A stretch of DNA of 47,501 nucleotides from Acidobacteriota bacterium (lineage in GTDB: Bacteria > Acidobacteriota > UBA6911): the NCBI GenBank assembly GCA_016934555.1, contig JAFGSS010000083.1:1-47501 (forward strand), in the 5' to 3' direction. Positions 6,326 through 15,507 of this stretch are shown one piece after another. A model generated the notes under the pieces. It saw nothing but the letters and a program-made list of their open reading frames with translations, searched no databases and was not told the origin of the DNA. Numbering within the stretch: the first letter of the stretch is position 1; each line of letters begins with the position of its first letter. The translations under genes and the position numbers were made by a program.

Positions 6326-7117
6326 ATGGCTGATGACAAAAAAGCCCTGAACACAGAGGCCGCCCCGAAAAAGCGGCTGTCCCGGCGCGACTTCCTGGTC
6401 ACGGGGGGAACCGTGGTCGCCGTCGATGCCCTGATCGCCGCCAGTCCGGCCGCGGCTGCCGCCGCACCGGCTGCCGCACCGGCAGGCTCATCGGCCGCCG
6501 CCACCTACCCCGCGTCGAAAGGGTACCTGGTCTACGACAGCAAGAAATGCGCGGGGTGCACCACCTGCATGCTCGCCTGTTCGCTCGTCCACTACGGGGT
6601 GCAGAACCTTTCCCGCTCCCGCATCCAGATCATGCAGGACTCCTTCGGCAAATTCCCCGGGGACGTCATCATGGCCCCCTGCCGGCAGTGCAAGGTGCCG
6701 GTGTGCGTCCAGAGCTGCCCGGTGGGCGCCGCCTATGTCGACACCGAAAACGGCAACGTGCGCCGCATCGACAGCGCCAAATGCATCGGCTGCAGGACGT
6801 GCCTCAGGATGTGCCCCCAGCAGCCGCACCGCACCGTCTGGGTCACGATCGACGGCAAGGGGAAGTCGTCCAAGTGCGACCTCTGCCTCGACACCCCCTA
6901 CTGGGACGAGAAAGGGGGGCCGGGGGGGAAGCAGGCGTGCGTGGAGAGCTGCCCGATGAAGGCGATCAAATTCGTCGCCGAAATGCCCGACCAGAAGGAG
7001 ACGGAAGGGTACGACGTGAACCTGCGCAACGACCACTGGTACAACCTGGGCCTGGTGGACAACAGCACCGTGGAGCCGAAACGGAATCCGGTGTGGAAAG
7101 TCGGGGGAGGGGAATAG
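6326..7117 (+). CDS. Tat-signal 4Fe-4S ferredoxin-type electron transfer protein (YdhY-like), paralog of 2356..3060
   Basis: KRLSRRDFLVTGGTVVAVDALIAASPAAAAA; CAGCTTCMLAC, CRQCKVPVCVQSCP, CIGCRTCLRMCP, CDLCLDTPYW motifs. Confidence 0.92.
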   Translation: MADDKKALNTEAAPKKRLSRRDFLVTGGTVVAVDALIAASPAAAAAAPAAAPAGSSAAATYPASKGYLVYDSKKCAGCTTCMLACSLVHYGVQNLSRSRIQIMQDSFGKFPGDVIMAPCRQCKVPVCVQSCPVGAAYVDTENGNVRRIDSAKCIGCRTCLRMCPQQPHRTVWVTIDGKGKSSKCDLCLDTPYWDEKGGPGGKQACVESCPMKAIKFVAEMPDQKETEGYDVNLRNDHWYNLGLVDNSTVEPKRNPVWKVGGGE

Positions 7118-7118
7118 G

Positions 7119-9164
7119 ATGAAAGGCGGATATACGGGCAAGATATTGCGGGTCCATCTTACGACCCGGACCATCGGCACCATCGACACGGCCAAATACG
7201 AGGAATTCGGGGGCGGGCACGGCATCGGCTCCGCGGTGTTCTTCGATCTCGTCGGCGATCAGCTTACGTTCGAGGCTTTCGATCCCCGCAACCTCATCAT
7301 CATGATGGCCTCCCCCTTTTCCGGCACCTTCATGCCCGGCTCGGGGCGCTGCGAGGTCCAGGGAATGGGGCCGATGCTCTACCCCGTCGAGTGGTTCGCC
7401 CACAGCAATTTCGGGGGGCGCTTCACGGCCCAGCTGAAGTTCGCGGGGTGGGACGGCATCGTCGTGGAAGGCGCCGCGGACGAGCCGGTCTGGATCAACA
7501 TCGTCAACGACAAGGTTACGATCGAGAGCGCCAAAGGGATCTGGGGGATGGACACCTGGGACACCCAGGAGGAGATCTCCCGCCGCGTGATGCCGGGGCT
7601 CAAATACGGCGAGTGGGCCGAGCTGGCCCGGGACCAGGCGACCACGCAGTCCCCCGCCGTCGTCTGCTGCGGCCCGGCGGGGGAGAACCGGAGCCGGCTG
7701 GGCGCGCTCCTGCACGGCCCCGGTTCGCAGGCGGCCCTGTGCGGGTTCGGGGGCGTTTTCGGCTCCAAGAAGCTCAAAGCCATCAGCGCCATCGGGACGG
7801 GGGATGTCCCGATCGCCGACCCCAAGGCCTTCATGGCCGCGCGCCTCTGGTTCCGGCAGTTCCAGTGGGACGTGGATAATCCCCGCGAGGCGGAGCGCTT
7901 CGGCGCCGGTGGTCCCTACGCCCTGATCAGCGGCCGCCCCAGCGGGGGGAACGTGCTCAACCGCGACCTGCCGCTCACCCCCGCGCGTGCGACCGCCTGC
8001 GCCTCCTGCCCGCGCGGCTGCCGGATGCGGCTGGCCACGGGGGACAGCAACGAGTCGGTCTGCGCCGGCACCATGGTCATCACGGTCAACGGGTCGGTCA
8101 AGTTCACCCGCCAGGGGAACGACCTGATGCAGAAATACGGCCTCGGACACTGGCAGCTGATGCCGCTCCTGTCCTACATAGACGCCCTCCACAAGAAGGG
8201 GATCCTCGGGAAGGGGAAGCAGATCGACACCGACCTGCCGCTCGACCGCCCCGGCACGTTCGCCTACGCCGACGCGGTGATGCGGGCGATCGCCTACCGG
8301 GAGGGGGTCGGGGACGACCTGGCCGAGGCGTGCGCCCGTTTCGCGAAGAAGATCGGGCGCTACGACCAGGACGTCAACGACGGCACGCTGAGTCTGGCCT
8401 ACTGGGGGACGGCCAACCACTACGACCCGGCGATCGAGGCGGAGTGGGGCTTCGGCTCCCTGCTGGGGGAGCGCGACCTGATGCTGCACCAGATGTCCAA
8501 CTACCCCATCCACTGGATGGCCTGGTCGGGCGACCCCTACCTGACGGCCGAGGAGGTCTCCCGCCTCTACACCGACGCCATGGTCCCCTACCAGGGGGAC
8601 CCCTTCATGGTCGATCACAGCGACGGGCCGACCGGGATCTACTCCGACTCCAAGGTCAAGCAGGTCGCCTGGATCAAGCACTACGAGAAGTTCTGGGTCG
8701 GGGCGGGCGGTTTCTGCGGCTGGCGCTGGCCGATGTGCATCACCAACAACACGGCCGACCGCCGGGGGGCGACGCCCGAGGCGGAACCGAAGTTCTGGAA
8801 CGCCGTGACCGGGGATAACCGGACGTTTGCCGACTACATGGAACTGGGGCACAAGATCTACACCCTCGACCGCTCCATCTGGGCGCTGCAGGGGCGGCAC
8901 CGGGACATGGAGGTCTTTCCCGACTACGTCTACGACAAGCCGAGCGTGGGGCACGACATGACCATGTACATCGACGGCCAGTGGCAGTACGCCAAGGGGA
9001 CGGGGCGGACGCTGGACCGGGCGAAAGTGGAGGATTTCAAAACCAGGTTCTACAAGTTCGAGGGGTACAATCCCGACAACGGTTATCCGAAGCGGGACAC
9101 CCTCGAGAAGATGAAGCTCGCAAAGGTCGCCGACCTGCTCCAGAAGCGGGGCAAGCTGGGCTGA
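7119..9164 (+). CDS. Aldehyde:ferredoxin oxidoreductase family W/Mo-pterin enzyme
   Basis: 681 aa; MKGGYTGKILRVHLTTRTIGTIDT..., HSNFGGRFTAQLKFAGWDGIVVEGAADEPVWI, CASCPRGCRM; 1 bp after the upstream ferredoxin gene. Confidence 0.93.
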   Translation: MKGGYTGKILRVHLTTRTIGTIDTAKYEEFGGGHGIGSAVFFDLVGDQLTFEAFDPRNLIIMMASPFSGTFMPGSGRCEVQGMGPMLYPVEWFAHSNFGGRFTAQLKFAGWDGIVVEGAADEPVWINIVNDKVTIESAKGIWGMDTWDTQEEISRRVMPGLKYGEWAELARDQATTQSPAVVCCGPAGENRSRLGALLHGPGSQAALCGFGGVFGSKKLKAISAIGTGDVPIADPKAFMAARLWFRQFQWDVDNPREAERFGAGGPYALISGRPSGGNVLNRDLPLTPARATACASCPRGCRMRLATGDSNESVCAGTMVITVNGSVKFTRQGNDLMQKYGLGHWQLMPLLSYIDALHKKGILGKGKQIDTDLPLDRPGTFAYADAVMRAIAYREGVGDDLAEACARFAKKIGRYDQDVNDGTLSLAYWGTANHYDPAIEAEWGFGSLLGERDLMLHQMSNYPIHWMAWSGDPYLTAEEVSRLYTDAMVPYQGDPFMVDHSDGPTGIYSDSKVKQVAWIKHYEKFWVGAGGFCGWRWPMCITNNTADRRGATPEAEPKFWNAVTGDNRTFADYMELGHKIYTLDRSIWALQGRHRDMEVFPDYVYDKPSVGHDMTMYIDGQWQYAKGTGRTLDRAKVEDFKTRFYKFEGYNPDNGYPKRDTLEKMKLAKVADLLQKRGKLG

Positions 9165-10230: not shown

Positions 10231-11901
10231 CTAGTACTTCACGTAAGTCGGGACCAGGGTTTTGTACCTGGCCACCAGCTTGTCCCAGTTTTTGGGAAGC
10301 TGGATCTTGCGCGTGACGAACTCGTTTTCGAATCCGCCCGCGCTCTGGTGATGCCCGATCCAGACCCCGGGACCCCCGGCGACCACGAGGATGAAGTCTT
10401 CGTTCTTCAGGCCGCCGCCGCCGGCCGCGCGGGGAGTGTTCTTGACGATGAAGTCCTTCACCTGCTGCTTCGTCCACCCCGCGCTCTTGAAGATCCGGGC
10501 GTGATCGGGGATGACGACCAGGCCGGCCAGCGAATAGAGCCCGAGCCCGGCCATCGACCCGGCCAGGCCCTCGGGGCTCGTCTGCGCGGGGACATGCTGG
10601 GTGTAGCGGTTGGGGAAGAAGACCGTGACGGTGCTGTCGTCCGGGTTGAAGCCCAGGTCGACGTGCAGCGGCTGCCAGGGGCTCTCCTCCTGGTTTTCGC
10701 CCAGGACGAGGGCGTACTTGCCGGGGTTCCCCAGCGTTCCCATGTCCTCGATCCCCTTGCGCGCGCCGCCGATGTTCTTGACGATCAGGCCTACGGCCCG
10801 ACCGATGGCGGAGTTGGCCATGTTGCCCGGGCTGAGGGCGCCCGAACTGCAGTTGATGTGGATGTCGTTGCGCAGCGGCCCGTTGATGAGCAAAAACGGG
10901 GCCCACGACCCGGTGCTGACCTCGAAGGTGTCGAACCGGGTTTTCGGGTCCGCCAGGGCGTCCACCGTCGCCAGCAGCACCGGCATGTGGATCGGCAGAG
11001 CGCCGGCCATGACGGCGTTGACGGCGATCTTTTCCACCGTGGCCTTCCCCAGGCGCGGGATGAGCTTGGCCACGACGTGGTCGCGCGGCAGGTCGGTGCC
11101 CGTCAGCATCTCGGCCACCGCCTGTTCGGTCGGGGGATACAGGGGGAGTCCGTCCCCCCAGCCCTTGCGGTAGAAGAACTCGTTGAACTGCCGGAGCGTC
11201 CCCTTGAAGGCGACCTTCGGCTGGGGTTCCTTCTGGACCTGCGGGTTTTTCTCCTCCGCGGTCAAGGGTCTGGTCAGCGCGGCAATGATGTCGCCGAGAG
11301 CGGCGTCAATGCCCGATTGGATGTCTTCGGCAACGGTGGATTCGCAGGCGATGGACGTTCCCAGTACCCGCACCCCCGGCATGCCTTTACCCGACGACGC
11401 CGAGTGGGCGTCGTTCACGAAACCGCGATTCGCCAGTAACACGACCGGCGTTCCAAAGTCCTCGATCGCTACGCCGTTGTAGGCGAGGAACTTGGTGCAG
11501 GACCCTCAATCGCCGACCGCGGCGACCACCGCGTCCATGTCTTTGGCCCAGGCCGCGAACCGCTCCTTGTTGACGGTCTCGGTCTCGGTGACGTTGGGCA
11601 GGGTGGAATGGAAGAGGCTGGTCTGGATGGTGGGATATTTCTGCTTCAGCCTTTTTTCCACCTCGTCGGTGATCGGTTTGGCCGCGCGCTTGAAGTTGGC
11701 GAACAGCCCTACCTTCTTCCCGTCCAGGGTGTCGAGCCGGGGGGAAAGGCCCCGGAGCGGGATCGGGTCCACGTCAGCCCACGGGCTGAGGACCTCGTAC
11801 TGCGTTTCCGGGGCCTGCTGGGCGGCCAGGCTCCCGGAAGGGGCGGGTACGGCCACGACGGAAAACGCCGTCACCGCCGCCACGGACAATAATCTGCGCA
11901 T
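10231..11901 (-). CDS. UGSC-family exported selenoprotein (TGA at 11508..11506 read as Sec) with long C-terminal domain
   Basis: ORFs 11506..11901 and 10231..11442 share one frame with a single TGA between: ...DAVVAAVGD-U-GSCTKFLAYNGVAIEDFGTPVVLLANRG...; literal UGSC signature; signal peptide MRRLLSVAAVTAFSVVAVPAPSGSLAAQ; AGGAGG RBS. Confidence 0.9.
11459..11489 (-). promoter_or_regulatory. Candidate bacterial SECIS hairpin downstream of UGA in the 10231..11901 gene
   Basis: TCCTCG-C-CTAC-AACGGC-GTAG-CGAT-CGAGGA: 6-bp outer and 4-bp inner stems; loop starts ~27 nt after the UGA. Confidence 0.45.
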
Positions 11902-12124
11902 GTGTTGCTCCTCCTTGTTCGTTGGTGAAATGTAAGCTGCCCCTTATGATATCAGGAAGGACCGCCCCAGGCGCGAATGCCGGGAGCGGTCCCACGCCCG
12001 CAGGCGCTTACGCCTGATAGATCTCGCATAATAGATATAGTAGCCATAAGGAGACAACTCTAGCTCCCGGGGCGGGGTGAAGTCAAGCATAATGAGTGGA
12101 AGATCAAGGTTTTACCGGTCTGAT

Positions 12125-12173
12125 CACAGGGACCGCGGCGCCGCGAGGCGGCCGCGGCGCCGCGGTCCCTGTG
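12125..12173. terminator. Perfect 21-bp inverted repeat, putative terminator of the cupin gene
   Basis: CACAGGGACCGCGGCGCCGCG-AGGCGGC-CGCGGCGCCGCGGTCCCTGTG just past the stop codon of the - strand gene ending at 12176; no clear U-tract. Confidence 0.6.
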
Positions 12174-12175
12174 CG

Positions 12176-12607
12176 CTACTCGTCGTCCTTGATGTAGCGG
12201 CCGCCCGGGACGGTGGTGAAGTGAAAGACCGGCCGGTCGACGCGCCGGAGGATCAGGGGGCAGTGCTTCATCCCCGCGGGTACGAACAGGAGCGCGCTGC
12301 GGGTGATGACGTGTTTTTCGTCCTCGAGCCAGATTTCGATTTCGGCGCCGAGGTCGTGGGGGTGGTCCGGATCGTTGCCGAAAAACCCGATGATCTCGTC
12401 CGCGTCGTGGACGTGGGGCCGGTCTTCGAGGGTTTCGGCCGCCCGGAGGTACCAGGCGGTGTTCATGTGAAAGGCCCCCTCCACCACGTTTTCGTCCATC
12501 CAGAGGATGCGGCGGGCGTAGCGGGAGTAGGCGGTTTCGATCTTCCGCTTCTCCTCGGGGACGACCAGGTCGGTGACGATGTATTTGCCGTATTTCGATC
12601 CTTCCAT
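12176..12607 (-). CDS. Cupin-like domain protein
   Basis: MEGSKYGKYIVTDLVVPEEKRKIETAYSRYARRILWMDENVVEGAFHMNTAWYLRAAETLEDRPHVHDADEIIGFFGNDPDHPHDLGAEIEIWLEDEKHVITRSALLFVPAGMKHCPLILRRVDRPVFHFTTVPGGRYIKDDE; HxHxxDE...GxxH pattern. Confidence 0.7.
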   Translation of the reverse strand: MEGSKYGKYIVTDLVVPEEKRKIETAYSRYARRILWMDENVVEGAFHMNTAWYLRAAETLEDRPHVHDADEIIGFFGNDPDHPHDLGAEIEIWLEDEKHVITRSALLFVPAGMKHCPLILRRVDRPVFHFTTVPGGRYIKDDE

Positions 12608-12642
12608 GCAAACCTCTCCTTCCTTTTTGTGAAGCCGGGGGG

Positions 12643-13434
12643 TCATTCCCGCCGGCGCAGTCCGCTCTTGCCGCCGAGGTGCTGGCCCCCGTCGAATTTG
12701 ATCGTTTCTCCCGTCATCATACGCGCCCCCTCGGCCAGCCAGACGATGGCGTCGGCGACGTCCTCGGGCGTTGCCAGGACCTCCAGGGGCGTCGTCTCGC
12801 GCACGGATTGGACGACGCGGGCGAATTCCGTGTCTCCCAGTCCCCGGCGCAGCCAGCGGGTGTCGATGGCCCCCGGGGCGACGCCGTTGACCCGGATCTC
12901 CGGACCGAGGGTGCGGGCCAGGCACTTGGTCATGTTGATGACGGCGGCCTTGGAGGCGGAATAGGCGATGGAACTGCCGTGCCCCAAAAACCCCGCGATG
13001 GAGACCACGTTGACGATGGCTCCCTCCCCCGCTTTCTTCATGTGGGGGACCGCCGCGCGGGAGCAGAAAAAGTTGCCCATCAGGTTGGTGCGCAGGATCT
13101 CGAGCCAGACGTCCTCCGAGAGCGCCTCGAGGTCGCCGAATTCGACGAAGCGGGTGACGGCGGCGTTGTTCACCAGGACGTCCAGGCGCCCGAAGGCGTC
13201 CACCGCCGCCTGGACGAGGCGCCTGCAGTCGGCTTCCAGCGACACGTCGGCCTGCACCACGACCGCCCCGGCCCCCCGCTCGCGGCAGAGCGCGGCCGCC
13301 TCCTCCGCTTCGGTGCGGCTGCGGTTGTAGTTGATGACGACCGAACACCCCCGCCCGGCGAACTTGAGGACCGCCGCCCGCCCCACCCCCGCCGAACTCC
13401 CCGTGACCACCGCTGCCTTGTTTTTCAGGTCCAT
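12643..13434 (-). CDS. Short-chain dehydrogenase/reductase (SDR)
   Basis: MDLKNKAAVVTGSSAGVGRAAVLKFAGRGCSVVINYNRS...NNAAVTRF...YSASKAAVINMTKCLA; TGxxxGxG and YxxxK motifs. Confidence 0.95.
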   Translation of the reverse strand: MDLKNKAAVVTGSSAGVGRAAVLKFAGRGCSVVINYNRSRTEAEEAAALCRERGAGAVVVQADVSLEADCRRLVQAAVDAFGRLDVLVNNAAVTRFVEFGDLEALSEDVWLEILRTNLMGNFFCSRAAVPHMKKAGEGAIVNVVSIAGFLGHGSSIAYSASKAAVINMTKCLARTLGPEIRVNGVAPGAIDTRWLRRGLGDTEFARVVQSVRETTPLEVLATPEDVADAIVWLAEGARMMTGETIKFDGGQHLGGKSGLRRRE

Positions 13435-13780
13435 AATCCGAAACTCCGTTGGATGCTGCCGGCGCCCTCGGACGCCGGAGAGTGCGTTCGCCCTATTATG
13501 GGCCGCACAGCGGCGCATGCGCCCTGTTTTTTCGCTCCGTCTCGGCCCGGGGAGGCCGCAGCCCGTCCCCGATACCTGAAAGGGGGAAATTCCCGGACCT
13601 CCATTATCGCTTGGAAAACCCAAGGACACCTATAGGTTATAATGGTGCTTCATGGAGGGGGGCTGAACCCCGGGGCGTGCCCGCGCATCCTATGAAGGGA
13701 CGCCCGCGGCAGGCACTGACCGGTCGCGGTTTACGGGGGGACAGGAGGGAGCGATTGTGAGATCATGGTCGGGAGGGAAT

Positions 13781-14191
13781 ATGAAGCGATATCTTGCAGG
13801 ATGGGTGGCGGGCGTCTGCCTGATGGCGTTGGCGATGGCGGCTCCCGCCCGGGCGGCGGAGGTCCCCCGTATCGGCGTCGGGGAACTGAAGAAGATGATG
13901 GACGAGGGGGTCGCGGTGACCGTGATCGACGTGCAGTCGAGGGAGGCCTACGCCGAGGGGCACATCAAGGGCGCCCTTTCGATCCCCTGGCAGAGTCAGA
14001 TCGCGCTCGAGGACGTCTGGTCGTTGCCTGCGGACCAGCTGATCGTCACCTACTGCGACTGCGGCCCGGGGGAGGCGGACAGCGCCGATTTTGCACGGCA
14101 GCTCTTCCAAATGGGGTACGAAAACGTCAAAATACTGGCGGACCCCTCCATCAGGGAGTGGCGTGAAAAGGGCTACCCGGTCGAAAAGTAG
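13781..14191 (+). CDS. Exported rhodanese-like protein
   Basis: MKRYLAGWVAGVCLMALAMAAPARAAEVPRIGVGELKKMMDEGVAVTVIDVQSREAYAEGHIKGALSIPW...VTYCDCGPGEADSADFARQLFQMGYENVKIL. Confidence 0.9.
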   Translation: MKRYLAGWVAGVCLMALAMAAPARAAEVPRIGVGELKKMMDEGVAVTVIDVQSREAYAEGHIKGALSIPWQSQIALEDVWSLPADQLIVTYCDCGPGEADSADFARQLFQMGYENVKILADPSIREWREKGYPVEK

Positions 14192-14215
14192 GGGGCCCGC
14201 GGAGACAGGAGCCTT

Positions 14216-14665
14216 ATGAGAATGCCATGGTGTTTTGCCCTGTTGCTGGCGGCGGCGGCCGGGGGCGCCGGCTGGGCCGGCTCGGAGCCGGCGGCCGCTT
14301 ACGTGGGATGGGAGCGGTGTGCCCCCTGTCACTCGGAACTCACCGAGGGCTGGCAGACGACGCGGCACGCGAAAGCGATCGACAGCCTCAGGAAGACGGG
14401 GCAGGAAAATCTGCCCGGGTGCGTCGAGTGCCACGTCACCGGGTATGAAAAGGACGGGGGTTTCATCGACTGCGAACTGACGCCGGAGATGGCGGGAGTG
14501 CAGTGCGAGGCCTGCCACGGGCCCGCCGGGGGGCATGTGGAGGACCCGATGGGGGTAAAACTGGTCCGGGACGCGGGTGAGGACGTCTGCCGGGCGTGCC
14601 ATACCGAGGACCAGGACCCGGGATTCAACTACGAGGAAAAGACCAAGGGAATCCACGGCGACTAG
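14216..14665 (+). CDS. Exported tetraheme c-type cytochrome (cytochrome c554 family-like)
   Basis: Four CxxCH motifs: CAPCH, CVECH, CEACH, CRACH; N-terminal signal sequence. Confidence 0.88.
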   Translation: MRMPWCFALLLAAAAGGAGWAGSEPAAAYVGWERCAPCHSELTEGWQTTRHAKAIDSLRKTGQENLPGCVECHVTGYEKDGGFIDCELTPEMAGVQCEACHGPAGGHVEDPMGVKLVRDAGEDVCRACHTEDQDPGFNYEEKTKGIHGD

Positions 14666-14702
14666 GGAGCCGCGGGTTCCGGATCGAGAGAAGGAGATTT
14701 GC

Positions 14703-15440
14703 ATGAGATACGGCAAAACGGCGATGGCCGCGCTCGGCATGGCGGCGGTGTTGGCGCTGGCGGCACCCCCGGTCGGTGCGGACGCGGGGGTCGGGGAACT
14801 CACCGCCACCCCGGCGCACCATGAATTCGGCCAGGTGCCGGAGGGGGAAACGGCCCGGGTGACGGCCGTCGTGCAGAACACCGGGAGCGCGGAGGTCGAG
14901 ATCACCAACGTGAGGACCAGTTGAGGGTGCACCAAGGCCATGCTTGGAAAGCATGCACTCAAACCGGGCGAAAAGACGGAACTCACGGTCAGCTATGAAA
15001 CGGAGGGGAGGCCGGGGCCGTTCGATAAAAAGGTCCTATTGACCACCAACATTCCCGGGGGGAAAAGCATCGAAATCTTCAGCCTGAAGGGGGAGGTCCT
15101 GGAAGCCCCCGGGGCCAAGATCTCCGTGGAACCGAGGAGGGTGACGCTCAAGGGGGAGGAGCGCGCCGCGGGGAAGGTCCAGCGGTTTGTCGTGAAAAAC
15201 GAAGGCTCGCTTCCTCTCGTCGTCAAGGAGATCCGGTCCAAGGACGGGAAGACGGTGTACTTCGGCGGCGCGGACGCGGGGGCGCTGACGGTCCAGCCGG
15301 GCCAGAGCGGTGAACTCGAGCTCAAGATCCCGGGGAAACCGGGGGAAAAGGCGGAGCGGGAGTTCCTGCTGGTCGATTCCAACGCCAGGAACGCCGGCGC
15401 CTCGGGCCTTTTCCTGCTGATCCAGTACGACGCCCCGTAG
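14703..15440 (+). CDS. DUF1573-domain exported selenoprotein (TGA at 14922..14924 read as Sec)
   Basis: Upstream part MRYGKTAMAALGMAAVLALAAPPVGADAGVGELTATPAHHEFGQVPEGETARVTAVVQNTGSAEVEITNVRTS, TGA, then GCTKAMLGKHALKPGEKTELTVSYETEGRPGPFDKKVLLTTN in the same frame; the usual DUF1573 motif is TSCGCT. Confidence 0.9.
14939..14955 (+). promoter_or_regulatory. Candidate bacterial SECIS hairpin in the DUF1573 selenoprotein gene
   Basis: CATGCTT-GGA-AAGCATG: perfect 7-bp stem, loop starts with G, 22 nt after the UGA; flanked by GGGTGC/GCACTC pairing. Confidence 0.7.
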
Positions 15441-15465: not shown

Positions 15466-15507
15466 GCGGCGCCCCGGGAACCCGGTCCCGGGGCGCCGCT
15501 TTTTTTC
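15466..15507 (+). terminator. Rho-independent terminator
   Basis: GCGGCGCCCCGGGA-ACCCGG-TCCCGGGGCGCCGC followed by TTTTTTT. Confidence 0.93.

Follow-up and report, generated by a model that had tools for sequence, protein, structure and literature searches.

The UGA codon at positions 14922-14924 of the analysed acidobacterial contig (47,501 nucleotides, the whole of which is referred to below as the window) is almost certainly read as selenocysteine (Sec) within an exported DUF1573 protein, as judged from sequence comparison. Sec insertion is the best reading because this UGA is conserved at a cysteine column, the coding sequence behind it is under purifying selection, a hairpin follows it and the genome carries Sec machinery (selA, selB and selD). 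The Sec/Cys column, the selection, the comparison of hairpins among homologs and the sel genes also support the initial annotation of this DNA, in which Sec had been proposed to replace a conserved cysteine in an exported DUF1573 protein. Both the actual incorporation of selenium and the export of the product are what we infer from these data. The following features of the window were considered:

13757-14191, plus strand: exported rhodanese-like protein with a YCDC motif; the true start is probably ATG 13781
14216-14665, plus strand: exported tetrahaem c-type cytochrome with four CXXCH motifs, related to the C-terminal domain of the UshA-like (seleno)protein NF041198
14703-15440, plus strand: DUF1573 selenoprotein gene, 245 residues with Sec74; a predicted signal peptide is followed by tandem Ig-like (ASH/HYDIN-like) domains
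14703-14786, plus strand: Sec-type signal peptide MRYGKTAMAALGMAAVLALAAPPVGADA, predicted from inspection by eye; the structural model is of low confidence over residues 1-30
14922-14924, plus strand: UGA, predicted to be read as selenocysteine; motif TS-U-GCT, with a UxC pair formed with Cys76
14939-14955, plus strand: SECIS-type hairpin CATGCTT-GGA-AAGCATG, with a perfect 7-bp stem from +15 and a G-first loop beginning 22 nt after the UGA
15466-15507, plus strand: intrinsic terminator-like hairpin of 14 bp with a T run, 3' of the selenoprotein gene

The DUF1573 frame continues through the UGA

The gene runs from ATG 14703 to TAG 15438-15440 with a single in-frame TGA at 14922-14924, which places U74 in TSUGCTK. 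The Pfam DUF1573 profile (PF07610) matched residues 36-132 (E 2.3e-28), spanning the TGA, and the score of 98.5 bits was above the gathering score of 26.1 bits. The frame initially described as open past the TGA up to the TAG at 15440, with a joined product of 245 residues, was borne out, and the Pfam domain crosses the TGA. The AlphaFold model of the protein (mean pLDDT 85) comprised two beta-sandwich (Ig-like) domains, with U74 located between strands 65-72 and 77-81 and with U74 and C76 on a loop of the first domain. According to Foldseek, the folds nearest to the model were HYDIN/CEP192-type domains and the Porphyromonas protein 2qsv, and the search of solved structures by sequence returned weak matches only. 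If the UGA were a true stop, the locus would encode two proteins, one short and N-terminal, the other translated downstream from an internal start (e.g., ATG 14940, 166 aa), and an ORF beginning at this ATG is present. Such a stop would, however, split one Ig-like domain, which the Pfam match crosses and AlphaFold builds as a single fold; the downstream fragment would be left without some of the domain strands and without a signal peptide, and the homologs carry Cys at the stop position with no break. The expression of two separate proteins is accordingly very improbable.

The TGA column and selection across homologs

The read-through protein was used to search 100 related genomes for homologs. 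The nine further genomes of the genus each had a best match with exactly one TGA, at the same codon, and no other stop, and 12 more distant genomes beyond the genus carried the same TGA, always in this column. Of the 47 DUF1573 homologs aligned, 27 had TGA and 20 had Cys in this column, and none had another residue; the Cys homologs possess a CGCT motif, the first Cys of which corresponds to the TGA. The TGA had initially been placed at the first-Cys position of TSCGCT in the DUF1573 frame, and the identity of this column in DUF1573 proteins had been set as a check beforehand; the strictly Sec/Cys column agrees with both. Positions 74 and 76 were invariant in alignment A2 (13 members), and most members of the genus have UAC in place of UGC at the Sec motif.

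The dN/dS ratio after the TGA was approximately 0.10-0.27 in five non-saturated pairs, e.g., dN of 0.016 and dS of 0.12 for this part of the gene in the pair formed by the window's own genome and the sister genome G005. In the closest pairs, purifying selection after the TGA equalled or exceeded that on the preceding part. Random stops and frameshifts were looked for in the downstream half of the gene in close relatives, and none was found, only the same TGA. A Cys-to-stop mutation, giving a pseudogene or reflecting an assembly error in the own genome, would take one base change (TGC or TGT to TGA), and the assembly behind the window is a draft in 233 contigs. The initial annotation had regarded such a mutation as unlikely, and the recurrence of the TGA in the nine genus members and the 12 more distant genomes, together with a conserved downstream half in which dN is much smaller than dS, leaves it next to no probability.

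The hairpin downstream of the UGA

The bacterial SECIS model (PMC13188914) has a loop of 3-9 nt with G in the first two positions, located 16-37 nt after the UGA, and an MFE of no more than -7.5 kcal/mol. The window hairpin agrees with this model in loop, G and spacing; the energy of the bare hairpin (-5.8 kcal/mol) falls short of the model limit, and the stretch starting 8-13 nt after the UGA gave -7.0 to -8.3 kcal/mol. When the whole fragment around the UGA was folded by RNAfold, the minimum-energy fold was a different structure, and the 7-bp hairpin became the minimum only once approximately 8 or more nucleotides after the UGA were omitted, which presumably mimics, roughly, their place inside the ribosome. 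The initially described geometry (the 7-bp stem starting at +15 and the G-first loop at +22, within the published spacing) was retained, but the hairpin was not the minimum fold of the entire region and was recovered by RNAfold in the shortened one.

In synonymous codon shuffling of the window gene alone, 13% of the shuffles equalled the hairpin (p ~0.13). Double compensatory changes were seen at three of the seven hairpin pairs across the ten genus sequences, and pairing was preserved in 98.6% of cells versus 21-57% when the partner was slid. A model-type hairpin was present in 25 of the 27 TGA homologs (G045c and G049 had none fitting the simple SECIS model), whereas in the Cys homologs it was weak or lacking. 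The median hairpin energy was -6.8 kcal/mol for the TGA homologs versus 0 for the Cys homologs (rank test, p 4e-8, with relatedness ignored). It is the comparison across homologs, rather than the window gene by itself, that argues for a SECIS-type element here. SelB with Sec-tRNA would bind this hairpin just downstream and decode UGA 14922-14924 as Sec within the DUF1573 Ig-like domain.

Selenocysteine machinery of the genome

In the own genome, the profile matches to selB (377 bits), selA (563 bits) and selD (369 bits) each exceeded the cut-off. Its SelD carries one in-frame TGA (AAGUAAKMG; L067, G000:C149:344-1273) and would thus itself be a selenoprotein. No tRNA-Sec was detected in the own draft genome by the Rfam model or by an anticodon-arm pattern, and three candidate loci were assigned by ARAGORN to tRNA-Ser. 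A tRNA-SeC(tca) was found in nine of nine same-genus genomes. In the sister genome G005, selC is located at L088:5284-5382; from position 5471 of L088 onwards, the 5024-b own contig C69 runs collinear with it (4.4 kb at 91%) and stops 89 b from the site of the sister genome's tRNA-SeC. Because of this collinearity and the contig end 89 b short of the tRNA, the own selC has most probably been lost to a gap in the assembly. Of the sel genes whose presence had been set as a check beforehand, selA, selB and selD were found in the genome, and selC was absent from the draft, with synteny placing its site past the contig end.

All 22 genomes with the TGA form had selA or tRNA-Sec over the cut-off. 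Six genomes had DUF1573 homologs but neither selA nor tRNA-Sec (G062, G069, G074, G086, G093 and G097), and none of these six contained the TGA form. Reassignment of UGA to another amino acid (Trp or Gly) would be compatible with the frame, which is open whichever residue is inserted. The dedicated Sec machinery of the genome, the alternative residue of the homologs, which is always Cys and never Trp or Gly, and the association of the hairpin with the TGA forms only all speak against it, and such reassignment has a negligible likelihood.

A second, diverged Sec set was observed in the sister genome G006, consisting of a 94-nt tRNA-SeC, selA and selB beside a TonB-dependent receptor (L118, G006:C5:1-20000; receptor from 4645 to ~7000, tRNA at 7077-7170, selA at 11692-13101 and selB at 13112-15025). 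The receptor has an in-frame TGA (PGCU; NF049946, CU-motif type). This set may represent a Sec system that is dedicated or mobile; it may also be contamination of the draft. Two selA genes and two tRNA-SeC were present in G001.

Gene neighbourhood and putative function

The terminator-like hairpin behind the selenoprotein gene likely marks the end of an operon. The rhodanese, cytochrome and DUF1573 genes occurred together in the own genome, G005, G006 and G003. The cytochrome preceded DUF1573 in G004, G008, G001, G002 and the second G007 copy, and the rhodanese did so in G009, G007 and the second G002 copy. Within the same class, DUF1573 was fused to a CXXCH c-type cytochrome domain in G019 (L086, TGA form) and G020 (L032, Cys form). 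The upstream cytochrome was also considered as the tail of a TGA-broken UshA-like selenoprotein; this was rejected, as its frame is closed just upstream by the TAG that ends the rhodanese, and the frames upstream of the cytochrome showed no UshA portion.

Sec74 and Cys76, the UxC pair on the loop of the first Ig-like domain, would form a redox-active selenenylsulfide/selenol or a metal-ligand site. The likely partners would be the exported tetrahaem cytochrome and the rhodanese encoded just upstream, acting in an extracytoplasmic sulfur/thiol electron-transfer step. The neighbourhood and the fusions suggest a redox-partner role for the protein, for which the chances seem somewhat short of even. 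The idea that Sec is inserted while the UxC pair acts as a metal ligand (Cu, Fe or haem partner) or in a structural capacity, instead of in redox catalysis, competes with this role only and is a little more doubtful. It would fit the tandem Ig-like fold, which is not a thioredoxin fold, as well as the operon and fusions with multihaem cytochromes; against it stands the exchange of Sec and Cys across lineages at the first position with an invariant second Cys, as is typical of redox UxC/CxC sites. A more specific form of the redox role for this acidobacterial genus, in which rhodanese, tetrahaem cytochrome and the UxC Ig-like protein would make up an extracytoplasmic relay with DUF1573-Sec as its selenol component, is unlikely. 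Such a relay of three proteins would link a sulfane sulfur or thiol substrate to the respiratory chain by electron transfer and, if true, would provide the first biochemical role for DUF1573. The function of this uncharacterised selenoprotein family becomes testable because it is tied to a conserved exported rhodanese and a multihaem cytochrome.

Relation to known families

Two reviews (PMC9312934 and PMC13188914, citing Zhang and Gladyshev 2007) already include a DUF1573 family with a UGC motif in their lists of selenoproteins, and the family goes back to the 2007 study of the Olavius algarvensis symbiont, where it was first found. Judging by the names and the domain, the OS_HP2 family (NCBIfam NF041425) appears to be this listed family. 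The window protein shares with it the domain, Sec as the first residue of U-x-C-T and Cys homologs with CGCT. It differs in having a second conserved Ig-like domain, in the location of its gene in a rhodanese/tetrahaem cytochrome operon and in the UAC form of most genus members. NF041425 matched 13 of 13 members of A2 at E <= 0.001, and the window protein scored 71.9 bits, below the curated cut-off of 100; by these profile scores, its group is a subfamily related to the OS_HP2 (seleno)protein without being certified as such. The DUF1573-Sec protein is not a new family; what is new is the acidobacterial lineage, the UAC variant and the conserved neighbours (the exported rhodanese and the tetrahaem cytochrome). 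The selenoprotein is presented here across an acidobacterial genus in both UGC and UAC forms. Standard annotation breaks the gene at the TGA, losing the product and its active-site residue.

The upstream rhodanese matches the rhodanese-like (seleno)protein form 3, CxU (NF041203) nearly end to end (residues 21-144), but it has Cys (YCDC) where that family has Sec ('LYCAU') and scores below the cut-off. The cytochrome matches the C-terminal haem domain of the UshA-like (seleno)protein (NF041198, CxU; profile positions 402-519); unlike that protein, it is the haem domain alone, a free-standing exported cytochrome without Sec. The Porphyromonas gingivalis protein in PDB 2qsv, whose function is unknown, resembles the window protein in its tandem Ig-like fold (Foldseek E 4e-9) with a weak sequence match, but the TM-score over the two domains is low (different hinge).

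Several DUF1573 genes were present in some members of the genus. These included, in G007, a diverged TGA form accompanied by a cytochrome of its own (L071) as well as Cys forms carrying CGCQ (L077), and L070 of G002 is also among the loci of members with multiple DUF1573 genes.
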